From contig NZ_JAUSXT010000001.1 of assembly GCF_030816235.1 (NCBI RefSeq), positions 1,488,001 through 1,552,000 on the forward strand: 64,000 bases of DNA. Direction: 5' to 3'. The notes under the pieces are model-generated. The model did no database searches and was not told the origin of the DNA. It saw nothing but the letters and a program-made list of their open reading frames with translations. A program made the translations under genes and the position numbers. This stretch comes from Microbacterium sp. W4I4 (GTDB taxonomy: Bacteria; Actinomycetota; Actinomycetes; Actinomycetales; Microbacteriaceae). This document shows, piece after piece, positions 7,510 to 41,996 of this stretch; the first letter of the stretch is position 1; the number at the start of each line of letters is the position of its first letter.

Positions 7510-7663
7510 GATGGTGTCTGCGGCCGGAGCATCCGCCCCTGCCCCGCGCCAGCCGGTAAAGAATAGCTGAATATCCTGGTATAACGGCTGACCTTCGCGC
7601 CTCGCGGCAGCGCGGATGCATCATGATGAACTATCGACGTCCTCGGGGGAAAGGAAAGCCGTC

Positions 7664-15446: not shown

Positions 15447-15499
15447 TGCACTCTACCGAGGCCGCAAGATCACAAGCCAGGCGCTCTTACGGCCCGTTG

Positions 15500-16447: not shown

Positions 16448-16677
16448 GTCTCAATGTTACCGACAGCGACAGGACGCGCGATTCAATGTGGAACTCCCGT
16501 GCTGAGGTGAAGCTCCGGCAATTCACAGGCACATTCGTGATCACACGGAGTGCCGGATTGAGCCCAATGGTCGCCTGCCCGGCCCACTACGCTAGATAGA
16601 CTCTTCCGAGGAAACGTGCGCGTGCGGCGCCCCGGACTTGCTGGGCACCGCCGTCACCTCACGCTTGAGGAGAGTTG

Positions 16678-17943: not shown

Positions 17944-17992
17944 GCCGCCCGCACGCTTCAAGGGACGTAACGCGAGTCGCCTAGCTGTACGA

Positions 17993-19165
17993 TCAAGCGG
18001 TTCGACTATCAGCCAGCGCTGCCCTGGCAAGCATCCACACGTGCGCATCTGGTGTTCGCTTGGCCCAGTTTTCGTAAGCGGTTCCTGCCGCGGCCCGGCG
18101 CAAGCGTCGCTCCGCCGCCGGCTCGGTGGCGAGACGCTGCAACTCCTCCGCCCAGGCGCCCGCTGAACGGGCGATCACCAAACCTCCCCCGCCCTCCAGT
18201 ATCGGAGTCCAAGGCGTATGTGGAGTTGTTGCTACGGCACAGGATGCACACAGAGCCTCTGCGATCACATGACCGAAGTTCTCGCCCGCCGTCGGCATAA
18301 GCATCACGTCGTATCCAGACAGGACCGTAACAACATCTCCTGGAGCGACCGGACCATGAAAAGCCAGTTGGATATGACGAGGAATTTCAGCTGCTCGGCT
18401 CTGGCACTCGGCGAAGTATGCTTCTTGCTCACGTGATCCATAGACATGGAACTCCAGCGGCACCGTGACGCTCTTCAGCGCTTCCAGAACGATATGCAAG
18501 CCCTTGTGTTCCACAATCCTTCCGAGAAACACGGCTCGAAACGCGTTCGAAGGGGCATCGGTGATCTCACGCGCGTGACGCGGCAAAAGCGTGTCGTTGC
18601 CACGTTCCACTATATGGACGCCATCGCCCCACTGTTGAATGATCTCAGCGGTTTCACGCGGAGCTGTGGAGTGCCAGATCACCCTCTTGGGGAGTCCAAG
18701 CAAACAGAACGCGCGCATGTACGCGCGCTTCTTTTGTGCTCGCCGCGAGAGAGCGCCTTCACCGAACTCACCCCGCGGCGCCAACAAGACTTTTGCGCCA
18801 CGAAAGAATCCTAACCGCCAAAGCATTAAGGGAATTATGGAAAAGAGTGGATTCATGAAGCTATTCAAGTGTATGAGATTTGGTCGCTTGCGTCTAACTT
18901 CCCGCATCGCGTGCATGTACCCTAACCACGAGCCTATCGTGGCGTAATAAACATCCACCCCGTCTTTTTTCACCCAAGCGTTAGCAACGACCGGAAGCCG
19001 CTCTTCAGCGCCAAGGTCACGATCGCCTGTCAGCACCGAAACGGTCATGTCTTTGGGCGCGAGTTGCGCCATCGCGTGGATCGACCGAATCGGTCCGCCG
19101 CCATTGAACGCGGGAGGATAGAACGGGACAATGGCTACTACTCGGTATGTCGTTGTCATCTGCAT
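17993..19165 (-). CDS. Glycosyltransferase family 4
   Basis: 390 residues from MQMTTTYRVVAIVPF; the frame continues farther upstream into the polymerase gene but with poor composition, and the ATG two codons downstream is an alternative. Acceptor-domain motif FYPPAFNGGGPIRSIHAMA is typical of GT4 proteins in capsule loci, LAPRGEFGEGAL marks the interdomain region, and AVFLGRIVEHKGLHIVLEAL and MPTAGENFGHVIAEAL (conserved ENFG and Glu) form the donor site. It overlaps the C terminus of no gene and follows the Wzy-like gene by 67 bases on the same strand, so it likely adds a sugar of the block B repeat unit. Confidence 0.87.
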   Translation of the reverse strand: MQMTTTYRVVAIVPFYPPAFNGGGPIRSIHAMAQLAPKDMTVSVLTGDRDLGAEERLPVVANAWVKKDGVDVYYATIGSWLGYMHAMREVRRKRPNLIHLNSFMNPLFSIIPLMLWRLGFFRGAKVLLAPRGEFGEGALSRRAQKKRAYMRAFCLLGLPKRVIWHSTAPRETAEIIQQWGDGVHIVERGNDTLLPRHAREITDAPSNAFRAVFLGRIVEHKGLHIVLEALKSVTVPLEFHVYGSREQEAYFAECQSRAAEIPRHIQLAFHGPVAPGDVVTVLSGYDVMLMPTAGENFGHVIAEALCASCAVATTPHTPWTPILEGGGGLVIARSAGAWAEELQRLATEPAAERRLRRAAAGTAYENWAKRTPDAHVWMLARAALADSRTA

Positions 19166-19232
19166 TCTATTCTCTCGCCCGTCTGCATTCTTGGTTTCCG
19201 GGTGCACACGACGGCTCCGGACCGACCTTTGA

Positions 19233-20534
19233 TCAACGGATACGCACCTTCTCGGAGTCGGCAGATCTCCGCCCACGTGCCGCGCGTCTCAAGAAAAGCA
19301 CTAGGACGAGAGGCAGCGACGACACCAGGTCCTGAAGCATGCCAATTATCGTGTCGGGGAACGTCGAGAACCACCCCAGGGGCCCACTCATCACCAAAGC
19401 CAGCAGCATCACTCGGAAGGGCGTAATTCGGGCACCTCCACGCCAAATCAGGTTGACATATACCGCCAGCAGGAAATAGTACACGAAGACATAGAGCGGA
19501 CCCTCTAACGCGTACGCGGTCGTAACCGGACCAAATGTATAAGCTGACGTAACATTCCCTCCCAGCGCAACATTGATCACCTGTCCAGTCGAAACCACGG
19601 GGCGGGCGGGGTCGAGGATGCGTGGAATGACCCCAAATCGAAGAATGTCTAGAGGCGTCGGATGCACCAGATGGGTGGGAATCTCGATGTCTAGAGGAAC
19701 CTCAATATCCTGCGCGCGCGCGAATTGCAAGTCGAACCGCAAGCGATCGAACGCCTCCACACCTGCGGTTACCTGGACCCCCTCTTGCGCACGGAGATCG
19801 TTCCGGATGTCAAAGATCACTGGCCAGACAAGAAGAACAGCAAACGCTCCAATCAGGACGACCTTGACCTTGATGATGCCGAACAGCAATGTGACCATTG
19901 CTAGGAACGTGACGAGCATGAGCAATGGCGCGGTTATTTGAGTGAAATACGCGTTGACGATGCCGGCAACAACTGGCACCGAGAGGATCAGAAAAAAGAA
20001 CCTGGTAGAACACATGCCACCTACGTGTGCAGCAAGCAACAGGCCTATACCAACATACACCCAGCCGCCAATGAGCGAATCGAGACTGTCGACTAACCCG
20101 GTCGAGACTTCAGCAGCACCAATTTGTACCGCAACAGAACCACGACCTGCATATGAGGCCAGCATGCTTGTAATGCTACTGGCAACGATCGCGAAAACAG
20201 CGACATAAAGCAACGCGCGCCCGTATTCACGCGCATTACTGGTTGCCGGCGCGGAGTCCTTTGCTTTCGGCCGAATCACTTCCGCGATGAAGGCACCCGC
20301 CAGTGCAATGAGAGCGACGCCGATCAGGAACCAGACTCGTGGATTCTCAAACACGAACGCAGGGGGGAGGACAAGCAGAACATACGGCGCCAGGAGCGAG
20401 ATCGTAACCGGAAACCGGCGATACAGGGAGACGAAGCTGGTGGGATTCGTATACTGTTGCCAGCCACGTGGCGCATTCGGTCGCGCCTGCTGATCGCCCT
20501 CGGCGTTGTGGCTGCGAACCTGGGCATGGGTCAT
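19233..20534 (-). CDS. Wzy-like polysaccharide polymerase
   Basis: 433 residues, about twelve hydrophobic helices, a central extracytoplasmic loop (around residues 235-325, with [18 protein letters not shown] and [18 protein letters not shown]) and a short basic tail ending in KVRIR. Wzy polymerases share this topology but little sequence, so the call rests on topology and on its position among Wzx-, GT- and sugar-nucleotide genes. It would polymerise undecaprenyl-linked repeat units outside the membrane. It is divergently oriented from gmd. Confidence 0.7.
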
Positions 20535-20741
20535 GGTCGGACTTCCTCCAGTTGCGTGCGCGCAACTGGTGGGTACTGCAGACCGTCCACAGACCCATGG
20601 TTGGAAAGTCTACGCCGCCAGTTCCACCCAAACGAAGCACGAGCGGACACCTCACGTTACTGTCCGAGAAGGTCGCGCCTCCTATACTGGCCTATCAGGC
20701 CCACGTTCGTGGGACTAGACAGAGTCCATCAGAAGGCGATG
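20535..20741. promoter_or_regulatory. Divergent intergenic region between wzy-like gene and gmd
   Basis: About 207 bases separate the two divergent starts, so promoters for both the leftward wzy/GT pair and the rightward gmd-GT-per-wzx run should lie here. I could not assign convincing -35/-10 pairs. The only clear site is AGAAGG just before gmd. Confidence 0.4.
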
Positions 20742-21752
20742 ATGAAAACTGCACTGATCACCGGCACCACGGGCCAGGACGGGAGCTACCTCGTTGAGTT
20801 GCTTCTCAGCAAGGGGTATGAAGTACACGGAACCAAGCGCCGTTCGTCGTCCTTCAACACGTCCCGGCTAGAGGAGGTCGCTCGCGCCGAAGGACATCGA
20901 CCAGATGGGCTCTCCCTCCACTACGCGGATCTGTCGGATGCCAGTTCGATCACGAACCTAGTCCGCGACATCCAGCCCGACGAGATCTACAACCTCGGCG
21001 CTCAGAGCCATGTTGCCGTGTCTTTCGACATTCCGGAGTACACAGCCGACGTCACGGGCGCTGCGACCATCAGACTGCTCGAAGCGATCCGCGCAAGCGG
21101 CGTCGACACCCGTTTCTACCAGGCATCCTCCTCAGAGATGTTCGGTTCAACACCGCCTCCACAGAACGAAGCGACTCCGTTCCACCCGCGGAGCCCATAC
21201 GGCTGTGCCAAGGTCTTCAGCTACTGGTCCACCATAAATTATCGCGAAGCTTATGGGCTGCATGCATCGAACGGAATCCTCTTCAATCACGAGAGTTCCC
21301 GTCGCGGCGAAACCTTCGTAACTCGGAAGATCACACGAGCGGTGGCGCGTATTGCCGAAGGTGTTCAGAACAAGCTCGTGCTCGGAAACCTGGACGCGGT
21401 GCGCGACTGGGGATACGCGCCCGAGTATGTCGAAGCGATGTGGATGATGTTGCAGCAAGACCAACCCGACGACTACGTAATCGCCACTGGCGAGGCACAC
21501 AGCGTTCGGGAGTTTGTTCAGGCAGCCTTCGAACGGGTGAACCTCGACTGGGAACGATACACGGAGACCGACTCGCGCTACGAGCGTCCCGCCGAAGTCG
21601 ACGCGCTGATCGGGGATTACAGCAAAGCGAAACGTCAGCTCGGCTGGTCACCGACCACGACGTTCACTGGGCTTGTCCACCGTATGGTCGACGACGATGT
21701 GCAGGCAGTACGTGATGAGAAGGCTGGGCGCAACGTACGGGTGGAACTCTGA
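20742..21752 (+). CDS. gmd: GDP-mannose 4,6-dehydratase
   Basis: 336 residues from [19 protein letters not shown] lies five bases before this ATG, and an ATG directly before it is the alternative. It converts GDP-D-mannose to GDP-4-keto-6-deoxy-D-mannose. The Rossmann motif [11 protein letters not shown], the Gmd signature [36 protein letters not shown] and the Y-x3-K-like segment of [16 protein letters not shown] are all present, as is [18 protein letters not shown]. Length is about 20 residues shorter than common homologues. It feeds the aminotransferase gene two positions downstream. No manB or manC gene for GDP-mannose supply is in the window. Confidence 0.92.
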
Positions 21753-21775
21753 ACGTGCGTGAGCACAATGCTCGC

Positions 21776-22981
21776 ATGTCCTCGTCTGAGATAACTCTTG
21801 ATTTTACATCTGTAGGACCAGACGCCGGAGGCGTAGGAATCGTAGCAGCCGGCACAGCACAGGGGTTATATGACTTAGGAGTGCGTTTCTCTTGCGTCGT
21901 GAATGAAAGCCAGTTCTCACCCTGGGCTCAGCATCTTCCGATGTTGAAGGAGCGAATTGTTCCCGTCAAAGTCGCGCTGAGTGCTACGAGCTTCTGGCAG
22001 AGTTTTCTCCGGCGTCATATTCCTCGCCGGATGCTTTCCGCGACCCTTCTCGGTAAAGTTCGCTCAGCGCGAGCACTGTCTACGGCTCGGACCGTGGACC
22101 AAGGTCAAGGTGTCGTCTGGCTACCGTTCCATAGATCACCGCTCACGTCGGATAAAGGCGTTGTGACTGTTCACGATCTCCGTGTTTTCGAGAATGGACT
22201 CGCTTCACCGGCTGACCAAAAAATTATTGAGGAGAACGTTCGAAAGGCTGCTGCAGTCGTTTGCAGCTGGGTTCATCCTTATCAATCGCTCCTAGAACGT
22301 TTCCCGTTCGCGAGAGAGAAGACGTTCTTAATCCCACTTCCTGTCCTCAATCCGGGCACTGCGCGTGTGCGTCAACAACCGAATTTCGGTCACGTACGGC
22401 TTCTGACACCCGGATTCATCACGCCGCACAAAAATCAGGAGGTGATCGTGAGGGCGCTTGCTCACCTCCCGAATGCTATCGCAGTCTTTACCGGAGCCGA
22501 GGATGGTCGATATGGCGACGAATTGCGCGCGCTCGCATCAGAACTCGAAGTGTCCGCACAAATCGAGTGGCGAGGTTACATCGGAACGTCCGAACTCGAA
22601 GATGAGTATTCCAAAGCCGATCTTTTGGTCATGCCGACCCGTTGGGAAGCAGCCAGCGGGCCCGTCTTCGAGGCAATCGCACGGCAGTTACCCTTCGTCG
22701 CCAGCGATATTGCGCCAATTCGTTCACAACTCGCAGCGATCCCGCTGGAAGCAGAACTGTTCGATTGCGATTCGCCGGACGCTCTCGTGAGTGCTATAAA
22801 GGCTGCAGTCCGCAATTACAATGCGTCGGTGACGAGGTTAGCGATGGTCTCAGGCCCCATAGTCAACCGCACATGGACAAATCTTGCCGCAGACTACAAG
22901 CGCGTTTTCGACTTCGCTGCGGGAACAGGTCCCCGCCCGTCGGACCTGATGATTGGAGTGTCCGATGATCCCAGTTTCTGA
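21776..22981 (+). CDS. Glycosyltransferase family 4
   Basis: 401 residues from MSSSEITLDFTSVGPDAGG; a GTG 21 bases upstream is a possible alternative. The N terminus SVGPDAGGVGIVAAG is an acceptor-domain glycine-rich loop. LLTPGFITPHKNQEVIVRAL and MPTRWEAASGPVFEAIARQ (donor site, with E-A-A-S-G in place of the usual EGFG) mark a divergent GT4 subgroup. It lies between gmd and per in one run, with the downstream gene starting inside its end, so transfer of the perosamine-type sugar is a reasonable guess. Base composition is among the least GC-rich of the window. Confidence 0.82.
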   Translation: MSSSEITLDFTSVGPDAGGVGIVAAGTAQGLYDLGVRFSCVVNESQFSPWAQHLPMLKERIVPVKVALSATSFWQSFLRRHIPRRMLSATLLGKVRSARALSTARTVDQGQGVVWLPFHRSPLTSDKGVVTVHDLRVFENGLASPADQKIIEENVRKAAAVVCSWVHPYQSLLERFPFAREKTFLIPLPVLNPGTARVRQQPNFGHVRLLTPGFITPHKNQEVIVRALAHLPNAIAVFTGAEDGRYGDELRALASELEVSAQIEWRGYIGTSELEDEYSKADLLVMPTRWEAASGPVFEAIARQLPFVASDIAPIRSQLAAIPLEAELFDCDSPDALVSAIKAAVRNYNASVTRLAMVSGPIVNRTWTNLAADYKRVFDFAAGTGPRPSDLMIGVSDDPSF

Positions 22982-24068
22982 GCCAAGCCTTGGTCCCTTG
23001 GAACGCAGCTATCTCCTCGACGCTTTCGACAGTGGATGGATCTCTTCGCGAGGAGAGTACATCGGACATTCCGAGAAGATCCTTGCGAGTGTCGCAGGTA
23101 CACCTTATGCGGCGGTTTGCAGTAATGGGACGACCGCGCTACACCTCGCGCTGCTCGCAATCGGGATCGCGCCTGGGGACGAAGTGATCATCCCCAGCCT
23201 CACGTACATTGCCACCCTGAACGCTCTTTACTACGTCGGAGCGACTCCGATCATCGTTGACGTGCTGGATGACACGTGGTGCATCGATCCGACTGCAGTC
23301 GAGTCGGTCATCACTGCCCGCACCAAAGCTATTATCGCTGTCGATCTGTACGGCCAGCCCGCCGACTATACCGCGCTGGCTCAGGTGGCGAAGCAACACG
23401 GCCTACGACTTATTGCTGATGCTGCCGAGTCAATCGCGGGATCCCTCCACGGAGTACCGACAGGAGCCCTCGCCGATGTGAGTGTCTTCTCATTCTTCGG
23501 GAACAAGGTGATCACAAGCGGCGAAGGGGGAGCGGTCACGACCGCTTCGCCTGACATCGATCGGCTCGTACGCCAGCTACGCAATCAGGGAAATCATCCC
23601 ACGCAGCGTTACGTCCATGACATGATCGGCTACAACTACCGGATGACGAATCTGTCTGCGGCAATTCTCACCGCTCAGCTTGAGCGAATCGACGGACTGG
23701 TCTCTGAGCGTAGACGCGTAGTCGACACCTATACCTCTCTGATCGGGGGTTCAAACGCCTTTCGCCTCCAGGAGGTATCACCGGGAGCGGTGCCTACACC
23801 GTGGATGATTTCTGTACGGATCACTGGATTGGACTCGGCTAGAAGGGACGAGGTAATCCAGCGTCTCGGCGAAGTAGGCATTGAGTCACGACCGGTGTTC
23901 CCTCTCATTCAGACCATGCCGTTCGTGCCCAAGGAACACCGTCGATCGACACCTGTCGCTGAACTCATCTCGCAGGAAGGTATCAGTCTGCCTACGTTCC
24001 CGCAGCTCTCGGACGATACCATCCAAATGATCGTGGATGCTCTGCACCGTACGTTGGCCCAGATCTAA
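22965..24068 (+). CDS. per: GDP-perosamine synthase-like DegT/DnrJ/EryC1/StrS aminotransferase
   Basis: 367 residues from MIPVSEPSLGP; GGAG lies six bases upstream and the start overlaps the previous gene by 17 bases. This PLP enzyme family aminates 4-keto sugars. Visible features: GWISSRGEYI, CSNGTTALHLALLAIGI, LYGQPADY, DAAESIAGS and the PLP-lysine segment FFGNKVITSGEGG near residue 183, plus GYNYRMTNLSAAI. These closely follow the Per/RfbE pattern, and the partner gmd immediately upstream provides its expected substrate, giving GDP-perosamine. Other 3- or 4-aminations are possible, but the gmd linkage favours this. Confidence 0.87.
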   Translation: MIPVSEPSLGPLERSYLLDAFDSGWISSRGEYIGHSEKILASVAGTPYAAVCSNGTTALHLALLAIGIAPGDEVIIPSLTYIATLNALYYVGATPIIVDVLDDTWCIDPTAVESVITARTKAIIAVDLYGQPADYTALAQVAKQHGLRLIADAAESIAGSLHGVPTGALADVSVFSFFGNKVITSGEGGAVTTASPDIDRLVRQLRNQGNHPTQRYVHDMIGYNYRMTNLSAAILTAQLERIDGLVSERRRVVDTYTSLIGGSNAFRLQEVSPGAVPTPWMISVRITGLDSARRDEVIQRLGEVGIESRPVFPLIQTMPFVPKEHRRSTPVAELISQEGISLPTFPQLSDDTIQMIVDALHRTLAQI

Positions 24069-24088
24069 CTGACCGACGACCGCCAAAC

Positions 24089-25258
24089 GTGAACCGAAAA
24101 CGCATCGCTTTCGCGGTCCTAAGTAACAGCGCCGCAAGCGTCGCTACCTTCTCATTATCAGTATCTGTGGCCAGGAATTCAACGATCGACGGGTTCGGTG
24201 CATTCTCTCTCGCGATGATCATTTTTCTGTTCGGGTCAGGCTTGCAACGGGCCGGTCTGACCGACTCTGCACTATCTCGCCCCGCGTCGAAAGGCGCATT
24301 CGTTCGAAACAGTCAAAGGGGATCGGTTGTTGGCGTGCTCGGCGGGATCTCACTCGCCGTCATCGGCACCCTTTCGGCGAACACGTACCTGATATTCCTC
24401 GGGATTGCCTTCCATGGCCTGCTGGCACTGGACTTTTTGCGGACGTATGATGCAGCAGTCGGCAACGTCACGCGGGCTTTCATGACGACCATTCTGTGGT
24501 CCGCGACCACAATCTCCTTTGCCGTCGTGTCGATCGTGTCCCCCATACCCTCCCCAGTCGTATTCGGATCTTGGGCATTCTGTGGCGCCACCATCGGTTA
24601 TATTAGTGCGCTCATTGCGAGGATGCCGCTGGTCCCCCGCTGGCCCAAGAATCGATTCGAATCGCGTATCGCGGGACTGTTTGGCCTCGATTACATCGTC
24701 GGTTCCGGCGGTTCGTCCTTGACGACGGCGCTACTCGGTACTTTTGTCAGCCCGCAGGTAATCGCCGCAATCCGAGGCGGCGGCACTCTTCTCGGTCCGG
24801 TAAACCTTATCTCTGCCACCGTTCGTTCTCTGTCTCTACCCTTTCTAGCAGCAGGGGAACGCAGAATTTCCGAGTTCGCGAAGGCAGTTCGGCTAACACT
24901 CGCAGTCAGCGTGGTGATCACCCCGTTGCTGGGTTTCCTTGTCTTTCTGCCCGACACGTGGGGGGCAGAACTACTAGGCGAAAGTTGGACGGTTGCACGA
25001 CCTGCTCTGCTCCCCCTAAGTATCGAGACGTTGCTTGCGCTTGTGGGTGGCATCGCTGCCGCCGGGCATCGCGTCGCCTTCGCCAGCGTCCGCACGTTGG
25101 TATTGCGTCTTTCTGTCGGCATCCCCCGACCATTTATAGTCGTGTGTTGCGCGGTAGCCTGGGGGATCCCTGGGGCCGCCTGGTCCATGGCGATAATCGC
25201 GGCGGTCAATGCTGTTCTCTGGTGGACCAGCTATCGTCTACTCACGCGGCCGGCTTAA
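24089..25258 (+). CDS. Wzx-like oligosaccharide flippase
   Basis: 389 residues with about ten to twelve hydrophobic segments and short basic loops, consistent with a MATE/MOP-type polysaccharide flippase, though somewhat short for Wzx (usually 400-480). Start is GTG. The sequence is poorly conserved, so the call rests on topology, position 20 bases after per, and the need for a repeat-unit exporter in a locus with a Wzy candidate. It converges on the acyltransferase gene with nine bases between the stops. Confidence 0.68.
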   Translation: MNRKRIAFAVLSNSAASVATFSLSVSVARNSTIDGFGAFSLAMIIFLFGSGLQRAGLTDSALSRPASKGAFVRNSQRGSVVGVLGGISLAVIGTLSANTYLIFLGIAFHGLLALDFLRTYDAAVGNVTRAFMTTILWSATTISFAVVSIVSPIPSPVVFGSWAFCGATIGYISALIARMPLVPRWPKNRFESRIAGLFGLDYIVGSGGSSLTTALLGTFVSPQVIAAIRGGGTLLGPVNLISATVRSLSLPFLAAGERRISEFAKAVRLTLAVSVVITPLLGFLVFLPDTWGAELLGESWTVARPALLPLSIETLLALVGGIAAAGHRVAFASVRTLVLRLSVGIPRPFIVVCCAVAWGIPGAAWSMAIIAAVNAVLWWTSYRLLTRPA

Positions 25259-25267
25259 ACTACCACG

Positions 25268-25945
25268 TTACCGATTGAACACTCGTCCGGGTACGCCGAC
25301 GACGACCACACCCGCGTCAACATCCTTAGTAACACATGCCGACGCCCCCACAGTCGCATCATTCGCCACGCGACGGTTTTCAAGGATAACGGCTCCCGCG
25401 CCCACCAGTGCTCGCCGACCTACCCTCACATCCCCCGAGATAATTGCACCAGGATTGATCGATACGAAGTCTTCAATTGTCACATCATGGCCAATCGTGG
25501 CATTCGGATTCACGGTCGAATAGCGGCCAATACGAACGTTCGTGGAAATGACAGCACCTGCGCAGACGATGGAGCCTTCGGCGATCGTCGTGTAACGCCC
25601 AACGTGGGCCGCTGGGTGTACGAGCGTCAGAGGTCTGATGCCCGCGCGAAGGAATCTATTGACCACCAATTCACGAATCCTGGGATCCCCCAGCGCAACA
25701 ACGAAGTAATCCGCGTCCGGATTCGTTAGAAACTCGTCGTCCGTTCCTAGGTGACGCACTCCTCGCTGACGCAGCCTCGTTAGATGGGCGGCCATGGGTG
25801 ACGGATCCGTCACCCCGACGACCGTGAAAGCTGCCTCGGACACCTCTGAAAGGTCATCTAGCACGTCAAGAGTCTCTCTGGCAAATCCTCCGGCTCCCGC
25901 GACTACAACCCTCCGACCAGCCGATTCAATATGCTTCCCGACCAT
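25268..25945 (-). CDS. NeuD/PglD-family sugar N/O-acyltransferase
   Basis: 225 residues. A small N-terminal Rossmann domain (VVVAGAGGFARETLDVL) precedes a left-handed beta-helix of hexapeptide repeats (IGRYSTVNPNATIGHD, ISGDVRVGRRALVGAGAVI). This two-part layout is that of NeuD, PglD, PerB and related acetyl-CoA-dependent enzymes that acetylate amino groups of UDP- or GDP-4-amino sugars. Given the GDP-perosamine genes just across the convergent junction, N-acetylation of perosamine is attractive. PglD's catalytic His falls in VHPAAHVG here. It is the last gene of the leftward operon, five bases after the 2-epimerase stop. Confidence 0.85.
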   Translation of the reverse strand: MVGKHIESAGRRVVVAGAGGFARETLDVLDDLSEVSEAAFTVVGVTDPSPMAAHLTRLRQRGVRHLGTDDEFLTNPDADYFVVALGDPRIRELVVNRFLRAGIRPLTLVHPAAHVGRYTTIAEGSIVCAGAVISTNVRIGRYSTVNPNATIGHDVTIEDFVSINPGAIISGDVRVGRRALVGAGAVILENRRVANDATVGASACVTKDVDAGVVVVGVPGRVFNR

Positions 25946-25950
25946 TTTGA

Positions 25951-27093
25951 CTATCCCTCGAGTGAATCGTTCCCGCGCACTCCCGTACGCATACGATGGG
26001 AGTGCGAGACGGAGCGGATGAAGGCGAGCACTCGTCTAGACGTGTCGCCAATCTCGTACTCTGCCGGGATCGATGCAGTCGTGCAGTGCTCATCGAGACT
26101 CAAACTCATTCGGACGGCATCGAGGATAGCGTCCTTCTCCAACCCTGTCGTGATGATCGTACCGACGTCGAGCGCCTCGGGACGTTCAATGAAATCCCGC
26201 ATCGTGACGGCAGCGAACTTGAGGATGCTGGATTCTTCGCTGATGGTTCCGCTGTCCGAGAGCGTGAGCCGCGCGTTCAGCTGAAGTTTAATGTAGTCAT
26301 GAAACCCAAACGGGGGATGAAAAATCAAACCTTCGCTATTGATTGAGCCGAGGCCCTCAAGCCTTTTCCGTGTGCGTGGATGCGTAGAGACGAGAACCGG
26401 CAGCGAATATTCCTCATGAAGCGATTGCAAGGCACGCACTGCAGAGCGAAGACGAACGGGGTGATCGACATTCTCCTCCCGATGCAAACTCACCAAAAAG
26501 TAGCCGTCTCTGGAAAGGCCCTGCTGCTCAAGTACGCCGCTCATCTCGATCTGCGATCGGTTCTGTGCCAGAACCTCCTGCATCGGAGAACCGGTCAACA
26601 GAATCCGGGAGGGATGAATGCCTTCTGCGAGGAGATTCCGTCGCGCATGCTCAGTGTAGACCAAATTGTAGTCAGAGATATGGTCCACGAGACGCCGATT
26701 GATTTCCTCAGGAACGTTCTCGTCAAAGGACCGGTTGCCCGCCTCCATATGAAATACCGGGACCTTCAAGCGCTTTGCAATCAACGCGGATATGCTGCTA
26801 TTCGTGTCCCCAAGGATCAAGAATGCATCAGGCTTCTCCGTGAGAATAAGCTTCTCTATCTTGATCATGATGCTGCCCAAAGTCGAACCGAGGGAAGATG
26901 TATCCGCTTCGAGGAAATAATCTGGACGACGTAGACCCAAATCCGAGAAGAACACCTCGTTTAACTCATAGTCGTAGTTCTGACCGGTGTGCACGAGCAC
27001 ATGGTCGGCGTGATCGTCGAGTAACTTGATCGTTTCGGAGAGGCGGATAATCTCCGGGCGGGTGCCCACGACCGTCATAATCTTGAGCATCAT
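25951..27093 (-). CDS. UDP-HexNAc C2-epimerase (CapG/FnlC/WbvD-like)
   Basis: 380 residues of the non-hydrolysing UDP-GlcNAc 2-epimerase fold (WecB superfamily). MTVVGTRPEIIRLSE is N-terminal, VHTGQNYDYELNEVFF, GDTNSSISALIAKR, HMEAGNRSFDENVPEE and SDSGTISEESSIL follow. The EAGNRSFD pattern and the neighbourhood of a 4,6-dehydratase/5-epimerase and a reductase fit the CapG/FnlC branch that inverts C2 in the route to UDP-L-FucNAc or UDP-L-QuiNAc. It overlaps the reductase gene by four bases. It could also serve UDP-ManNAc formation for the dehydrogenase at 16.7 kb; I consider that secondary. Confidence 0.86.
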   Translation of the reverse strand: MMLKIMTVVGTRPEIIRLSETIKLLDDHADHVLVHTGQNYDYELNEVFFSDLGLRRPDYFLEADTSSLGSTLGSIMIKIEKLILTEKPDAFLILGDTNSSISALIAKRLKVPVFHMEAGNRSFDENVPEEINRRLVDHISDYNLVYTEHARRNLLAEGIHPSRILLTGSPMQEVLAQNRSQIEMSGVLEQQGLSRDGYFLVSLHREENVDHPVRLRSAVRALQSLHEEYSLPVLVSTHPRTRKRLEGLGSINSEGLIFHPPFGFHDYIKLQLNARLTLSDSGTISEESSILKFAAVTMRDFIERPEALDVGTIITTGLEKDAILDAVRMSLSLDEHCTTASIPAEYEIGDTSRRVLAFIRSVSHSHRMRTGVRGNDSLEG

Positions 27094-27986
27094 TGATCTT
27101 CCCCTTGAACTCGTTCTAGATCCTTAACCATGTCCGCAATAGTAGGCAGAACCGTGTAACCACCGGCGGCCCATAGCGCTTCGTTGCGCGCTGGATCCGA
27201 GGATGCCAACGTCCGATTCACTGGGCTCCCAGTCTCAGTTGGCACTACTTCGATATCGTCACGTCCGAATGTTCGCAGGATCAGTCCCAGCAACTCATAC
27301 TTCGAGACAGAATCTGCTGGGACAAGGTGAGCGAGCCCCGGTCGCCAGATGCCGTTCCTCACCACTCCTAGCGCCACCCGTGCGAAGGCCGTAGTAGTCA
27401 CTCCGTTCCAGAAATGATCGGTATATCCGCGAATCACCGCTTCCTTAGGTTGTAAAACTGCCCAATCAACGAGCGATCGGTGCTCGCGCAGTTCACGCCC
27501 AATGATTGATGCACGGATATGCATAATCTGGGGGCTGGGAACTTCCCCGAGAGATTTCGTCTGCCCGTAGACATCGCCCTCATTGTGGGAGGATTCCTCA
27601 ACGTATGACCCGAGCCTGCCGTCGTACACACAGTCCGTCGCAATTTGAATGATTCGGAACCCTCTTTCTCGCGAGGCCCGATCTAACTGATGCGGCAAGT
27701 TGGCGTTAAGGGCAATTGCACGCTCACGACTGTAGAGCGACGCGTCGTCAATCAAGTGTTTGATCAACCCGACGCAGTTGATCACTAGGTCCTGCTCAGC
27801 CAAACTACCAACGACTTCTGCCACGGGCGTAGTGGCGGCATCGAAGTAGATCAGTTCATCCGGCGATCTGTCGGCGACCTCGCGCTGAGTCGTAGTCCCG
27901 GCAACATCCAGTCCGAGCTCGGATGCGTGCGCCATCACTGCAGACCCAAGCATTCCAGTCGCTCCAAGAACGAGGATCTTCGACAT
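27090..27986 (-). CDS. RmlD/WbvR-like NAD(P)-dependent 4-keto sugar reductase
   Basis: 298 residues. ILVLGATGMLGSAVM opens a short-chain Rossmann fold, NCVGLIKHL, IATDCVYDGRLGSYVEES and VYGQTKSLGEV (Y-x3-K) match the RmlD-type reductase. In the FucNAc/QuiNAc pathways the second enzyme reduces the 4-keto intermediate; CapF/FnlB types carry an extra cupin domain, whereas WbvR types for L-QuiNAc are RmlD-like and short, as here. It shares one base with the upstream dehydratase and four with the downstream epimerase. Product (L-FucNAc or L-QuiNAc precursor) is inferred. Confidence 0.82.
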   Translation of the reverse strand: MSKILVLGATGMLGSAVMAHASELGLDVAGTTTQREVADRSPDELIYFDAATTPVAEVVGSLAEQDLVINCVGLIKHLIDDASLYSRERAIALNANLPHQLDRASRERGFRIIQIATDCVYDGRLGSYVEESSHNEGDVYGQTKSLGEVPSPQIMHIRASIIGRELREHRSLVDWAVLQPKEAVIRGYTDHFWNGVTTTAFARVALGVVRNGIWRPGLAHLVPADSVSKYELLGLILRTFGRDDIEVVPTETGSPVNRTLASSDPARNEALWAAGGYTVLPTIADMVKDLERVQGEDQ

Positions 27987-29056
27987 CAGCGGTCGACTCT
28001 ACTTGATTCCGCTTTACGCTCCGACGGCGTGATGCCTGCGGACGCAAGCACGGCTCGGATTTCTGGAAGCGTAAGCAGCAGCGCTTCGACACCCTCTACA
28101 CTAAGCCTGTCGGCGGTGTGAGAGTCATAGTCCTCGAACTGGGATTGGCTAGGATCACCTTCCTCGAAGTATGCAGAGTAGTTCAGATCCCGTTTGTCTG
28201 CAGGAACCCGAAAGTACTCTCCCATGTCGTACGCCCTCGACAACTCTTCACGGGTGGCAAGTGCCTCGGAAAGCTTTTCTGCGTGCCTTGTGCCGATCAC
28301 TTCCACCTTCGCGGAAGACTGGAACAGGTTGATCACTGCCTGCGCGAGATCACCGATCGTGCACGCTGGCGCCTTCCGAATGAACAGATCCCCCTGGGCG
28401 GCGTTCGTGAAGGCGAAATCGACAAGATCGACCGAATGGGCAAGTGACATCATAAATCGAGTCATGGCGGGATTTGTGACTGTCAAGTTCTTTCCCGACT
28501 GCAATTGTTTGATGAACAGAGGGATAACCGACCCTCTCGAGTACATCACGTTGCCATAGCGGACGCAGGAGACCGTAGTAGCCGTCTTCGGATTGTTAAG
28601 TCCGTGAGATTGCGCAACCTTTTCCATCAACGCTTTGGACATTCCCATCGCGTTGACCGGGTAAACCGCCTTGTCCGTGCTAAGACAAACCACCGACCTT
28701 ACGTCATTCTTTTCTGCTGCCCTGACGACGTTTTCACTGCCCATGACATTAGTTCGAACAGCTTCCATAGGGAAGAATTCGCATGAGGGCACCTGCTTCA
28801 GAGCGGCCGCGTGGAACACATAGTCAACATCGCGGGATGCGCGTTCGACGCTTTCATAGTCCCGCACATCGCCGACATAGAACCTCAAACGGCTATCACT
28901 GACTTCGTGACGCATGAGGTCCTGTTTTGCCTCATCCCTGCTCAAGATCCTGACTTCACCGACGTCACGTCCCAATAGTTGAGCCGCGACGGTGTGGCCG
29001 AACGACCCTGTGCCTCCTGTTACGAGAACCCGCTTGCCTGTGTATGAGTCGTTCAC
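27986..29056 (-). CDS. UDP-GlcNAc inverting 4,6-dehydratase/5-epimerase (CapE/FnlA/WbvB-like)
   Basis: 356 residues, soluble. VLVTGGTGSFGHTVAAQLL binds NAD; ILSRDEAKQDLMRHEV and HAAALKQVPSCEFFPMEA are hallmarks of the CapE/FlaA1 group; STDKAVYPVNAMGMSKALME carries Met in place of the usual SDR tyrosine before the catalytic Lys, a known trait of inverting UDP-sugar 4,6-dehydratases. It converts UDP-GlcNAc to UDP-4-keto-6-deoxy-L-hexosamine intermediates. Followed by reductase and 2-epimerase genes, it opens the L-FucNAc/L-QuiNAc branch. Overlaps the GT4 gene upstream by four bases. Confidence 0.9.
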   Translation of the reverse strand: MNDSYTGKRVLVTGGTGSFGHTVAAQLLGRDVGEVRILSRDEAKQDLMRHEVSDSRLRFYVGDVRDYESVERASRDVDYVFHAAALKQVPSCEFFPMEAVRTNVMGSENVVRAAEKNDVRSVVCLSTDKAVYPVNAMGMSKALMEKVAQSHGLNNPKTATTVSCVRYGNVMYSRGSVIPLFIKQLQSGKNLTVTNPAMTRFMMSLAHSVDLVDFAFTNAAQGDLFIRKAPACTIGDLAQAVINLFQSSAKVEVIGTRHAEKLSEALATREELSRAYDMGEYFRVPADKRDLNYSAYFEEGDPSQSQFEDYDSHTADRLSVEGVEALLLTLPEIRAVLASAGITPSERKAESSRVDR

Positions 29057-30315
29057 CCTCGGCCTCCATTGCTGTTTATTACATTCGAAAGGGAATCGAC
29101 GATCGCTGCCGTCGTGGACCGCACAGACAAGTGGGAATCGTAATAGCGACGCCCTCGTTCACCGTACCCTGCCCATTGAGAGGAGCCGGCATCAGCCATC
29201 CGGGTGATGGCAGCGGCGAGCCCCTCGGTGTCTCCCGGGCGTACCACGAGACCTGCCTCGGCATCGCTGATCATACGAGCGCCATCTCCGGCGAGGTGGC
29301 CGATTATCGGAACCCCCGAAGCAAGCAGGGATGCGATCTTACTCGGTGTCGTGTAGGCCAGGAACGGCGCATCGGAAAGACTCACAAGCTGGACCTGCGC
29401 ACGCGCGATGAGCTCTGGGATCGTGTCCTGCGATACTCGGCCGAGGAACCTGACATTCGTGAGGCGCTCCTCCTGAGTGCGCCGCTCAAGTCGTTGTCGG
29501 CTGATACCGTCGCCCACGATCGTCACGCGGATGTCAGCTCGACCTCGGAGGAGTGCAGCGGCGTCGAGAAGCGTGTCGAGCCCCTGTACGTCGCCCACTG
29601 CGCCCGCATACATGATCTGCACCACGTCTGCCGCCTTGGCTGGAATGCCCTTTTCGGCACGGATGGCGTCCACAGGTCGGAAGAGGGCCTCGTTCGTCGG
29701 ATTGGGAGCGTAAACAATCTTCTGCGGATCGATCTCCGGGTGTCGTGACAGCAAGATGTCGCGCACGCTGCGCGAGCTGACCCCGATGACTGCAGCATGC
29801 CGTTCGGTTACGCGCACCACCCTCGCCATCACAGATGCAGCGATGGTTCCCACGAGCCCTTGTGGCAGCATTCCGCTGTCGATCATCGAATCCGGCCAAA
29901 GGTCCTGCACATGGAGGAAGAACGGCTTGCGCCCCCATCTCGTGTGCCAGAGCAGCGGAAGCCCTACGGTCGGAGGCGAGTTATACACCCAAACCGCATC
30001 TGCGTCCTTAAGAGCTGCGCCCGACAGGGCTGTCGCCGACGCGAGAAAGGACACATAGTTGGCAATGCGTCCGAACGACGAGGAACTGTGATTCGGGTAG
30101 AGGGCGACCCTTGTGACATCCATACCCGGGCTGTGCTCTCGAGTCCGCGGGCGAATGCGAAAGCCGTCGTAAAGCACTCCATCGGGATAATTGGGAAACC
30201 CGGTGAGCACACGAACTTCGTGGCCTCGCGCAATCAGCTCGCGGGCGTAGACACCGGGTAGCGATGCCGGCCCGGGCTCTGGGTCAAACCACTGGCTGAG
30301 GATGCCGACTTTCAT
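29053..30315 (-). CDS. WbuB-like glycosyltransferase family 4
   Basis: 420 residues. GILSQWFDPEPGPASLPGVY and VLTGFPNYPDGVLYDG at the N terminus, VWVYNSPPTVGLP and HVQDLWPDSMIDSGML in the middle, and VQIMYAGAVGDVQGLDTLLD plus YTTPSKIASLLASGVP at the C terminus match the WbuB group, whose E. coli O26 member transfers L-FucNAc. The gene immediately precedes the CapE/reductase/epimerase set, which supports transfer of L-FucNAc or L-QuiNAc as the second sugar onto the lipid-linked primer. It overlaps the initiating transferase gene by four bases. Confidence 0.87.
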   Translation of the reverse strand: MKVGILSQWFDPEPGPASLPGVYARELIARGHEVRVLTGFPNYPDGVLYDGFRIRPRTREHSPGMDVTRVALYPNHSSSSFGRIANYVSFLASATALSGAALKDADAVWVYNSPPTVGLPLLWHTRWGRKPFFLHVQDLWPDSMIDSGMLPQGLVGTIAASVMARVVRVTERHAAVIGVSSRSVRDILLSRHPEIDPQKIVYAPNPTNEALFRPVDAIRAEKGIPAKAADVVQIMYAGAVGDVQGLDTLLDAAALLRGRADIRVTIVGDGISRQRLERRTQEERLTNVRFLGRVSQDTIPELIARAQVQLVSLSDAPFLAYTTPSKIASLLASGVPIIGHLAGDGARMISDAEAGLVVRPGDTEGLAAAITRMADAGSSQWAGYGERGRRYYDSHLSVRSTTAAIVDSLSNVINSNGGRG

Positions 30316-32340
30316 GTTGCTGCTCCCGATCCCGTCTCATGGTGCACGCCGTCCGAGAGAATACGCTCCAGTCGCTCACGCTGAACCGCAGGGAACGAAC
30401 TCGAGAAGGAGGACACTTGCCGTTGCCCTAGCCACATCAATTCCAAACGGCGGGCTGCGCCGGCGATCTCCGGGACGACAACGCCGATGGTACGAGCGAT
30501 CGTGATCAGCGCCCGACACAGAACAGGAGGCAGGCTACGTGGCACTCGGCCTCCTGCGCTGCGGAGCACATCTGAGGCCGAGAATCCCTCCCATGGCTGC
30601 AACATGATCGGACCGAGCTCCTGCTCGCTTCGCGCAACGCCAGTGACGAAGGCGACTAGCCCATCAATGCTACTCACCACCGTTGGTTGACTCCCGGTGC
30701 CTGCCACACTGGCCAGCGGAGACTGCGCGACCCTGCGAAGCGTCTCTGTCGTTCGTCGCCCAGGACCTTGCACAGAAGTCGCTCGAACCACGATCAGGTC
30801 CGGAGCGGAATCCGCTAGACACGAAACGAGAAAGGCTCGTTCCCCCAGCGCCTTGGATCGCGAATAAGGCGAGAACGGCGAAACCTCGAGGCTCTCGTCG
30901 AGAACGGCACGACGGCCCTGCGTGGCGGCAGAACTGAGGTGAATCACCCGTCGTGCTCCCGCAGCTGCCGCGGCCTTGGCTACGAGTACAGGCAGAAGCG
31001 CATTGGCCCCATAAAGCTCCTCGCTAGCGGTGGCGTCTGGCGTCGCAAGCCCTGCGGCGTTAATCACGACGTCCACCCGTCCGATCATTCTTGTCAGATC
31101 AGCGACAACGTGTTGATCCCCGATCGCTGAGGCGATCTCGAATGGGTCGTGACATTGTGGCGATAGCTTCACGCGAGGTCCGCGAACCCCGACGACGTCG
31201 ATGTTCTGAGCGCGAAGATACGCAACGACGGCTGCCCCAACGAATCCTGTCGCCCCGATTACCGCATAGCGCTGCGGGCGGAAGCTCTGTCGTGGCGCGA
31301 CCGCGAGAGGCTGCTCAATCTGGCCTACGGGGTGTGTAGACCGCAACGGGAGCTTGCTTCCGCGTAACCGCGGCAGCAGGAGGTAAAGTGCACAGACAAG
31401 GCAGATGCCAACTAGCGCTCCCCAGAACCAAACGCCGCCGCGCATTGCCACTATCCCGAGTCCAGCGTTGATCCCAGAGAGCAACGCCACGAGTATCGAG
31501 ACCTGAACGTGTGATAGACCCGTGTCAGTCAGACGCTGGTACGCATGCGTCCGGTGCGCGCTAAGGACCGCCTCACGGCGGCTCGCCCGCCGGACAAGCA
31601 CCGAGATCGTGTCAACAAGGTATATCGACAGTGGGGCGAACACCGTGAGCAGTGGCGCCCCGACGAATACTGCGGCGATGGTCGCGGCCGCCACGAAGCT
31701 GCCGAGCAGATAGCTGCCGACATCTCCGAGGAACATTCCCGGCGGCAGTAGATTCCACGGCAGGAAGACCGCGAACACGACGGCGATCAGCAGCCCCACA
31801 GCGATGAGCCATGAGAAGTCGAGCATTACGCCGATCGTCGCGAATGCCCCGCCGACAACCATCCCGTGCAGTCCTGAGATGCCATTAATTCCGTCCATGA
31901 AGTTAGCAAAATTGACGTATGCCGCGAACAAGATAATTGCGACGACGACAAGCCATCCTGCTGCTCCGAAGAAGTTACCCAGCCAAACCGCAGCGAAGCG
32001 CTCCGATCAGAAGCTGACTACCTGCGCGGACGGCAACGTTAACACCTCGCAGGTCCTCGGCCGCACCGACCATGCTCATCATCACGGCGCTGAGCGCCAC
32101 CGCGACGAACGGTGCTGCCGCGTCAGTGCCTATGAACCCGGCGGTGACTACTCCTCCACCCACCATGACTCCGGCAAGTGGACCGATCCCGCCTCCGCGG
32201 AGCGTAGGCCGCACGTGTGATGAGCGTTCGTTGGGAACATCCAGCACACCAAGACGCGTCAGCGCCGGTCGCAGGAAGACGGGGACTATCCCCGCGACGA
32301 GCAGACCCAGGCCAACCCCGATCAAAATGGGCCAGGTCAT
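30312..32340 (-). pseudogene. Frameshifted fusion: WecA/WbpL-like phosphosugar transferase + WbpV-like reductase
   Basis: Two frames together encode one protein of about 675 residues. The first (121 residues from the ATG at 32340) begins an MraY/WecA-type membrane transferase (PNERSSHVRPTLRGGG) and hits TAA at 31975. The second continues the same fold: NFANFMDGINGISG, FLGDVGSYLLG and HRTHAYQRL are conserved family motifs. One extra base between 31978 and 32006 explains the break; total length minus one is a multiple of three. From about residue 357 comes an SDR domain (YAVIGATGFVGAAVV, PYSRSKALGE with Y-x3-K) like WbpV, which reduces 4-keto-QuiNAc. The fusion would start the repeat unit with QuiNAc-1-P. 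Sequencing error, real mutation and frameshifting all remain possible. Confidence 0.82.
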
Positions 32341-32492: not shown

Positions 32493-34343
32493 TCACGGTG
32501 GGATTACGGACGTGTCGTTGTTCCTGGGCTTCTCTGCCATCCGTGCTTTCCAGCCCGCGTTGTCCAGGCGCTCCGGCGAGATCGGGTCGGCATGCGTGTG
32601 GGAGATCTTGGGGTGGAACGGACGTTCCAAGTGCTCCTTCGCGCCCACGAGAACCTCGTGCAGCTTCTCGCCGGGCCGCAGGCCGGTGAAGATGATCTCG
32701 ATGTTCTTGCCCGACATCGAGATCATGCGCTTGGCGACCTCCAGAATCGACACGGGCTCTCCCATGTCGAGGATCAGCACCTCGCCGGGGCGACCGATGC
32801 CGCCGGCCTGGATCACCAACTGGCACGCCTCGGGAATGGTCATGAAGTAGCGCGTCGCCTCGGGGTGCGTCACCGTGATCGGCCTGCCCTCACGGATCAG
32901 CGTCTGGAACGTCGGCAGCATCGAACCGCGGCTGCCGATCACGTTGCCGAAGCGCACCGACACGTAGTTCATACCCGTCTCCTGAGCGGCCCATGCGGTG
33001 AGCTTCTCGGCCACGCGCTTGGAGTGCCCGAGCACGCTGGAGGGATTGGCCGCTTTGTCGGTCGACACGTTCACGAAGTGCGTCACGCCCACTCGCCGAG
33101 CGGCATTGAGCACGTTCAGTGAACCGAGCACGTTGGTCTTCCACCCCTCGTCGGGGTACTGCTCCAGCATCGGCAGGTGCTTCAGCGCCGCCGCGTGGAA
33201 GACGACCTCCGGGCGGCGGTCGTCGAAGATGCCATTGATCACATCCGCCTCGCGGATGTTCGCCAGAACAACCTCGCGATTGTTCAGCAGCCCGTGTCCG
33301 GAGACACCGAGCTGCGCGACCTGCAGACCGGTCTCGTCACGGTCGAGCATGATCAGCTCGGCCGGGCCGAACTTCGACAGCTGACGGCACAGTTCCGACC
33401 CGATCGAGCCGCCGGCGCCGGTGACCAGCACGCGCTTTCCCGTGACATAGCCGGCGATCAGCTCGACGTTGGTGTCGACCGGATGCCTGCCGATCAGGTC
33501 TTCGATGCTGATGTCCCGCACATCGGTCGGCGCCTCCTCGCCCGACATCATCGCGTTCAACGTCGGGGTGACGGCGACGCGGGCGCCGACGCTCTCGGCG
33601 TGGTCGCTGATCCTGCGCAGCATGACGCTGTCGGCCTGCCCCATGGCGACGACCACCATCGTCGCGCCGGTGCGCTTGACCACATCAGCGACGTCGGAGG
33701 TGCGTCCGAGCACGGGCACCCCGCGCAACACGAGGTTCTTCTTCGCCGGGTCGTCGTCGAGCAGACCAACCGGCCGGATCGGGGATGTCGGGTCGGTCGT
33801 CATGTTGTGCAGCATGCGATCGGCGATAAAGCCGGCGCCGACGATGATCGCCGGCTCGGCATCGGCACCCGGCTTGCGCGAGTGGTCGAGCACCAGACGG
33901 GCGAAATAGCGCACCCCGAACATGAGCAGCAGCACGATCGGCGCCGCCAGGAACACGGTGCCGCGCGGCACGTGCACGGCATTGCCGATCACGGCGATGA
34001 CGAGCCCCAGCACGATCGTGATGCTGAGCACGATCATGGCGAGCAGACGGACTTCGTCGAACGAGCCGTAGGTGTGGCGTCCGCGGTACAGCTTGGTCGC
34101 GTAGCCGATGGTCACGTGGATTCCGGCCGCGACCAGAGCGAGCAGCAGGGTGACCGTCCAGCCTTCGGGCGCCATCGAGAACTCGAAGCGCAGCGCCACC
34201 GCGAGGAGCACGCCGGTTCCCCACGCCAGCGCATCGACCACGGCCGCCCAGGCCCGACGCCGTCGCTGCGCAAGGGAGACGGCAGGTACGACGGTGATCT
34301 CACCGGTCGGTGGCACGGCTAAATTGGCTTCTTCAGCCCTCAT
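32493..34343 (-). CDS. WbpM/PglF-like membrane UDP-GlcNAc 4,6-dehydratase
   Basis: 616 residues: about four N-terminal membrane helices (residues 30-150), a CoA-binding-like Rossmann segment (IIVGAGFIADRML), and a catalytic extended-SDR domain from about residue 305 (VLVTGAGGSIGSELCRQL, HAAALKHLPMLEQYP, VSTDKAANPSSVLGHSKRVA). This retaining C6 dehydratase gives UDP-2-acetamido-4-keto-2,6-dideoxy-glucose, the precursor of QuiNAc and bacillosamine. The residue at the SDR tyrosine position is Leu where relatives usually have Met. It is the gene directly upstream of the transferase/WbpV fusion, which would use its product. High GC content returns here. Confidence 0.9.
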   Translation of the reverse strand: MRAEEANLAVPPTGEITVVPAVSLAQRRRRAWAAVVDALAWGTGVLLAVALRFEFSMAPEGWTVTLLLALVAAGIHVTIGYATKLYRGRHTYGSFDEVRLLAMIVLSITIVLGLVIAVIGNAVHVPRGTVFLAAPIVLLLMFGVRYFARLVLDHSRKPGADAEPAIIVGAGFIADRMLHNMTTDPTSPIRPVGLLDDDPAKKNLVLRGVPVLGRTSDVADVVKRTGATMVVVAMGQADSVMLRRISDHAESVGARVAVTPTLNAMMSGEEAPTDVRDISIEDLIGRHPVDTNVELIAGYVTGKRVLVTGAGGSIGSELCRQLSKFGPAELIMLDRDETGLQVAQLGVSGHGLLNNREVVLANIREADVINGIFDDRRPEVVFHAAALKHLPMLEQYPDEGWKTNVLGSLNVLNAARRVGVTHFVNVSTDKAANPSSVLGHSKRVAEKLTAWAAQETGMNYVSVRFGNVIGSRGSMLPTFQTLIREGRPITVTHPEATRYFMTIPEACQLVIQAGGIGRPGEVLILDMGEPVSILEVAKRMISMSGKNIEIIFTGLRPGEKLHEVLVGAKEHLERPFHPKISHTHADPISPERLDNAGWKARMAEKPRNNDTSVIPP

Positions 34344-38695: not shown

Positions 38696-41996
<3,301 letters not shown>

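Follow-up and report, generated by a model that had tools for sequence, protein, structure and literature searches.

Is the first rare sugar of a bacterial surface polysaccharide completed ahead of its attachment to the carrier lipid, or only afterwards? This is a basic question, for which the lipid-stage answer is to our knowledge given by one Rhizobium system only, and a natural fusion of initiating transferase and reductase would offer a single purifiable protein on which to measure the order. Such a gene lies in a 64,000-nucleotide stretch of Microbacterium sp. W4I4 (NZ_JAUSXT010000001.1, positions 1,488,001 to 1,552,000; hereafter the window), where an earlier note had described a WecA/WbpL-type transferase joined to a short-chain dehydrogenase/reductase (SDR) at 30312-32340. 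The location is right (minus strand, two open reading frames, ORFs) and so is the join, with PF00953 and PF01370 both matched and catalytic residues conserved in both halves. The fused gene is real, conserved and experimentally useful, and it is not a new kind of system. Through it, an SDR family without a name, whose members also stand alone in Arthrobacter and Kocuria, is tied to one defined step, and a transferase superfamily that a table in PMC10942596 gives as single-domain gains a modifying domain.

One reading frame in relatives, two in the window

Both Pfam domains were present in all 120 listed homologues (the best 120 of 1613 with E ≤ 0.001, one being the window's own), and one intact fused ORF was found at 15 distinct genomic loci; because of these two observations, the join of transferase and SDR is real rather than a chance event. 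Nine of the intact loci (L006-L014) belong to Microbacterium, Cryobacterium (two), Tessaracoccus (two), Arachnia, Actinotalea, Salinibacterium and a contig labelled as a Spirochaetia metagenome-assembled genome (MAG), and the six others are L186, L187 and L189-L192, longer versions that replaced L090, L093, L095, L096, L151 and L152. L188 and L094, on a contig equal in length to that of L011, were counted as the same locus as L011, and the window copies (L001, L088, L089, L092) were left out of the counts. The earlier note would have been undone by relatives that always keep the domains as separate genes, or by a reductase active site that is not conserved; intact one-ORF homologues exist at 15 loci, and Gly362, Gly365, Gly368, Ser469, Tyr492 and Lys496 of the SDR are present in 133 of 133 fused rows and in the window's piece.

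The fused gene is patchily distributed, occurring in scattered genomes that are mostly actinobacterial. Besides the broken copy of the window, searches at E ≤ 1e-20 found intact fused genes in one genome of 149 sampled from the genus, in four of 398 from the family, in two of 396 from the order and in none of 396 from the phylum, and a search at E ≤ 1e-30 found none in the 58 nearest relatives; the sets share genomes, and the window's own genome is in every one of them. Source records of the listed homologues gave the fused protein only generic names, and literature searches found no paper on a PF00953-SDR fusion, a weak negative given that subscription journals lay mostly outside coverage and unrelated papers were abundant.

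Around the transferase, arrangements vary. Among 79 named loci (the best 80 of 227 relatives, so that proportions are no census), nine are fused, two have both genes adjacent (L015, L061), 46 have both in the stretch on opposite strands and one has the reductase only; the others are weighed below. A few of the loci are curious in themselves. In the Spirochaetia-labelled contig (L007, 5370 bp in whole), which is probably mis-binned, the neighbours of the fused gene are of actinobacterial type and the gene itself clusters with fused genes from actinobacteria. In Sporosarcina beigongshangi (L042, 5085-11065), a WbpM-like gene, a transferase and a reductase are close to those of Arthrobacter, through either transfer or contamination. 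In L167 (1-2421) and L173 (1480-3945), from two genomes of the window strain's taxonomic order, an SDR of the fused-reductase family ends open frames of more than 800 codons whose first 500 codons have no Pfam match at E ≤ 1e-8; such frames represent a further fusion or else an artefact of open frames at high GC content.

In the window, the gene is interrupted. The first ORF (31975-32340, minus strand, 121 amino acids) is the N-terminal piece of the transferase (helices 1 to ~4) ending at a frame break, and has no Pfam match of its own. The second (30312-31931, minus strand, 539 amino acids from its first listed start, the frame staying open upstream to at least 31991) holds the rest of the PF00953 transferase and a complete extended SDR, matching on its own PF00953 at residues 3-86 (E 8.7e-14, 52.2 bits against a cut-off of 27) and PF01370 at residues 224-408 (E 4.1e-23). 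We used as reference an intact relative of 676 amino acids (P0003, source name Microbacterium xylanilyticum), against which tblastn placed the first ORF on residues 1-116 (68% identity) and the second on residues 114-674 (75% identity). Since the two ORFs together match the reference in this way, there is one plain frame break and no missing part, and the window gene (32340-30312) is whole except for this single break at ~31993-32000 (minus strand), where the two tblastn segments overlap and the reading frames meet.

No homopolymer longer than 3 bases was found in 31960-32040, and the sequence fits a mutation and a sequencing error equally well; the genome, assembled as one contig of 3.84 Mb, has a completeness rating of 100%. 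A full-length fused protein would be expected in the window strain only if a sequencing error caused the break. If real, the break would be recent, because 559 codons downstream are open, identity to the relative is 75% and all SDR catalytic residues are kept.

Two enzyme halves and the order of their steps

The transferase half has an MraY-type fold with the catalytic Asp, His and Asn conserved, and is a polytopic phosphosugar transferase of PF00953, in the WecA/WbpL/MraY superfamily. Neither window ORF matched PF02397, so that the fused gene is not a bifunctional monotopic phosphoglycosyl transferase (Bi-PGT). In intact relatives, one helix more than in MraY and a linker of ~30 residues precede the SDR, and the fold model is of high confidence. 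Further transferases of these two superfamilies are present in the window strain: the sole PF02397 monotopic initiating transferase of the genome lies at C1:1468789-1469349, ~19 kb outside the window, and further PF00953 genes lie at C1:891829 and C1:100739.

The reductase half carries the extended SDR signature (glycine loop, Ser, Tyr-x3-Lys). We aligned 133 fused and 69 stand-alone rows with 15 of another SDR type (Pseudomonas aeruginosa L182, Deinococcus L181, Shinella L183 and actinobacterial ones), which, from the form found in P. aeruginosa L182, we take to be WbpV/WbjF-type and name accordingly; our own definition of this type is Asn530, Asn551 and Arg553, invariant in its 15 rows. Mean identity was 46% between fused and stand-alone rows and 22% between the fused-reductase family and the WbpV/WbjF-type. 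Asn530 and Arg553, each in 15 of 15 WbpV/WbjF-type rows, were each found in 0 of 202 rows of the fused-reductase family (0/133 fused, 0/69 stand-alone), and the two types sit on separate branches of the SDR tree. Judged by sequence, the reductase half is not WbpV/WbjF-type: the name “WbpV-like” proposed earlier fits only its Rossmann and catalytic half, and the substrate half is different. In the alignments shown, similarity between a profile of the fused family and PDB SDRs ends at about residue 540, and the P. aeruginosa reductase matches uridine diphosphate N-acetylglucosamine (UDP-GlcNAc) 4-epimerase into its second half. Against plasmid sequences, the fused SDR had no match, and the WbpV/WbjF-type SDR matched 953 records, none of them named WreQ among the 40 shown.

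Two quick trees, without bootstrap and with long branches flagged, bear on the history of the fusion. In the SDR tree, which had 84 rows (35 of the 134 fused ORFs, 34 of the 69 “alone” and each of the 15 WbpV/WbjF-type), the fused rows come close to a single group (support 91), and the label “fused” needs three changes, two of them forced by starred branches. The split gene of Micrococcus terreus (L015) lies inside this group and is a true split, and an “alone” row also inside it (P0030, 519 amino acids) has both Pfam domains, having been mislabelled by a 200-residue threshold. In the transferase tree (77 rows), fused and separate forms are more mixed, and transferases beside a WbpV/WbjF-type reductase fall among the fused ones. 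The simplest history suggested by these trees is probably a single fusion, followed in some lineages by splits and reductase replacements; several independent fusions are disfavoured by the near-unity of fused rows in the SDR tree, which makes one origin likely without proving it.

Directly upstream of the fused gene, as the earlier note had seen, lies a WbpM/CapD-like membrane UDP-GlcNAc 4,6-dehydratase gene (32493-34343, minus strand; PF02719 at E 1.8e-100, plus CoA_binding_3), which ends 152 bp away. Of the 15 intact fused genes, 14 have a WbpM-like gene immediately before them, and such a gene lies within 500 bp upstream of 78 of 80 transferase segments at the 79 named loci, fused or not, the two others being second transferases, 29-30% identical, in Plantibacter. 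Because the domains share one ORF, catalytic residues are conserved, the fold model is of high confidence and gene order is conserved, we consider it likely that intact relatives make a single membrane enzyme with both functions, which initiates a surface-polysaccharide repeat unit and yields an undecaprenyl-diphosphate-linked 6-deoxy-N-acetylhexosamine (6-deoxy-HexNAc). The WbpM-like dehydratase would make the 4-keto-6-deoxy-HexNAc that serves as substrate, the transferase half would link it to undecaprenyl phosphate, and the SDR half, on the cytosolic side, would act as a C4-ketoreductase, an activity suggested by the WbpM-like neighbour. The product would be undecaprenyl-diphosphate-D-N-acetylquinovosamine (D-QuiNAc) or -D-N-acetylfucosamine (D-FucNAc), to which the glycosyltransferase of the next gene would add L-FucNAc made by Fnl-like enzymes. 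The earlier note settled on QuiNAc; the sequence fits both stereochemistries equally, and L-FucNAc occurs with D-FucNAc in Staphylococcus aureus (PMC6441080) and with D-QuiNAc in Pseudomonas cichorii (PMC6804347).

The best PDB matches of the SDR half in fold and sequence are UDP-sugar 4-epimerases (e.g., MoeE5 and UDP-GlcNAc 4-epimerase), none of the PDB rows shown bears the label of a 4-ketoreductase for this sugar (which excludes nothing), and SDR folds do not separate epimerases from reductases. The half could then be a C4-epimerase or have another SDR activity on the first sugar, such as converting a GlcNAc-type to an N-acetylgalactosamine-type sugar, with WbpM serving other sugars. We regard this as improbable in view of the recurrent WbpM-like gene upstream, and of a slot that is elsewhere occupied by a WbpV/WbjF-type reductase.

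Taking the SDR half as a ketoreductase, the order of steps turns on its substrate half. The earlier note read the fusion as support for reduction at the lipid stage. The fusion itself is compatible with reduction before or after lipid attachment and silent on the order, being equally expected if the UDP sugar were reduced first and then transferred, both on the fused protein, much as CapN and CapM act separately in S. aureus. The latter order has precedents in two papers: the CapD/CapN/CapM/CapL pathway, with the same gene inventory, in which CapN reduces the UDP sugar before transfer by CapM (PMC6441080), and Bacillus cereus Preq, which makes UDP-QuiNAc (PMC4514872). Against it stand the end of profile similarity to UDP-sugar SDRs near residue 540 and, as the main and moderately strong sequence evidence on step order, the absence of Asn530 and Arg553 from the fused-reductase family. 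Both positions presumably correspond to UDP-phosphate contacts of GalE. Reduction at the UDP stage is a serious possibility to which we give somewhat less than an even chance, and we lean slightly, as a lean and not a result, toward transfer first and reduction second.

Several observations weigh against the bifunctional initiator, its proposed order or its single origin, beside the two UDP-stage precedents. Lys or Arg occurs within positions 550-555 in 19 of 133 fused rows, which tempers the argument from lost UDP contacts, and the step-order evidence, of moderate strength, rests on a between-family alignment at 22% identity, where alignments can slip. A hydrophobic helix of the SDR (17-residue mean 2.31 in P0003 and 1.95 in the window) was considered as a membrane dip and dropped, the family mean of 1.51 (n = 133) not being above that of FnlA (1.54). 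The earlier note proposed to check whether intact copies always follow a WbpM-like gene; 14 of the 15 do, and L191 has none in ~8 kb upstream. On the transferase tree, the label “fused” needs nine changes (two forced), which argues against a simple history. Finally, the SDR appears dispensable to the transferase, because in 18 of the 79 loci the stretch read has the transferase and not this reductase, and in three (L016, L020, L026; four with L019 at a looser cut-off) the transferase is followed by a different, unrelated reductase.

It is tempting, if tentative, to go further and to see here Actinomycetota-centred polytopic initiators with a fused lipid-stage ketoreductase lacking UDP-binding residues, a non-classical membrane route to 6-deoxy-HexNAc in which the initiator is an exchangeable base. 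For the last part, related clusters have the reductase half cut off or replaced by an unrelated reductase.

Neighbouring genes and origin of the segment

Downstream of the fused gene, a run of minus-strand genes begins with a WbuB/WcaI-like GT-B glycosyltransferase (29053-30315; NF007640 at 172.7 bits, under the cut-off of 276), which probably adds the second sugar, taken to be L-FucNAc from gene position. It is followed by a UDP-GlcNAc 4,6-dehydratase/5-epimerase (27986-29056) with TIGR04130 as best match, for which “FnlA-like” is the right name because its 454 bits are below the NCBIfam cut-off of 730. Next come a RmlD_sub_bind reductase (27090-27986; PF04321 at E 1e-19), named FnlB-like because FnlA- and FnlC-like genes flank it, and a UDP-HexNAc 2-epimerase (25951-27093; PF02350 at E 5.3e-91, TIGR00236 (wecB) above cut-off) whose position suggests the FnlC role. 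The run ends with a NeuD/PglD-type sugar acetyltransferase (25268-25945; TIGR03570 at 192.5 bits, above cut-off), also found after the Fnl genes at L010. A WbuB-like gene or relative and then FnlA follow at 9 of the 15 fused loci, L186 and L190 having an extra gene between the two; FnlA and FnlC were counted there, FnlB being mostly unlabelled by BLAST (a gap of ~1 kb between FnlA and FnlC).

A low-GC segment (~15000-32000 of the window, 0.57-0.62) contains the genes that follow WbpM. GC content is 0.57-0.60 at 15-30 kb, passes through intermediate values at the edges and is 0.65-0.71 in the rest of the window, and third-position GC is 0.57-0.68 for the fused gene and those after it, compared with 0.87-0.89 for WbpM, RmlA and RmlB. 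This segment is probably an acquired polysaccharide module with an edge between WbpM and the fused gene. Together with the frame break and the finding of only one intact fused copy in the genus sample once the window's genome is set aside (148 genomes), this base composition gives an even chance that the window-strain gene is dead, that is, a recently acquired module with a broken initiator, of which only the SDR-bearing fragment may still be made, with no function here. The 559 open codons, the 75% identity, the complete SDR catalytic residues and the neighbouring genes of the run, all open, speak against this, and a sequencing error would undo the break altogether; in any case the question concerns the window strain and not the family. 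Two side observations come from the same region: the neighbouring rhamnose genes include an RmlC-RmlD fusion (deoxythymidine diphosphate-sugar 3,5-epimerase PF00908 and reductase PF04321 in one ORF, 40611-41993, plus strand), and two genes of the UDP-glucose/GDP-mannose dehydrogenase family (7616-8971 and 16675-17940, plus strand) could supply a uronic acid such as N-acetylmannosaminuronic acid (ManNAcA) or glucuronic acid (GlcA).

Comparison with known systems

The P. aeruginosa cluster L182 (pHOU1-1) resembles the window in having FnlA-, FnlB- and FnlC-like genes, a glycosyltransferase, an SDR, a PF00953 transferase and a WbpM-like gene in one run. As the earlier note stated for Pseudomonas, its transferase and reductase (WbpL and SDR) are separate genes, unlike at the fused loci; gene order differs too, and its SDR belongs to the other reductase family (43% identity to L026, against a mean of 22% between families). 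Rhizobium etli WreV-WreQ-WreU is like the fused system in its proposed steps, and the sugar is reportedly completed there after linkage to the carrier lipid, as the earlier note says and the title of a 2017 paper, cited in PMC11320575, states. The analogy with WreU breaks down at the transferase, since the one beside the WbpM-like gene on p42b, apparently WreU, is PF02397 and not PF00953, and the genes are separate; R. etli is an analogy to the fused family and not a relative.

In the gene clusters described in PMC3726653, the same set of functions travels as a block; wbpV and wbpL are separate there, and in PSgc5 and PSgc24 the authors think that wbpL is not the initiator. The S. aureus CP5 system (CapD-CapN-CapM-CapL with CapEFG) follows a like logic of dehydratase, reductase, initiator and L-FucNAc second, an inventory that builds C55PP-D-FucNAc-L-FucNAc, but CapM is monotopic, every protein is separate and reduction was shown at the UDP stage (PMC6441080). 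One table in PMC10942596 lists polytopic phosphoglycosyl transferases as “PGT only”.

Similar in architecture is the Bi-PGT of Deinococcus ficus (“hybrid nucleoside-diphosphate sugar epimerase/sugar transferase”), an initiator fused to an SDR beside FnlA/FnlC-like genes, which differs in having PF02397 at the C-terminus and a WbpV/WbjF-type SDR at the N-terminus. In Cryobacterium suzukii (L020, 10732-13233), a WbpV/WbjF-type reductase and the next glycosyltransferase share one open frame of 834 codons, and L097 looks alike. The reductase for this step is thus tied to the initiator in two transferase superfamilies, as SDR-PF02397 in D. ficus and PF00953-SDR in the fused family, and once, in C. 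suzukii, to the next transferase.

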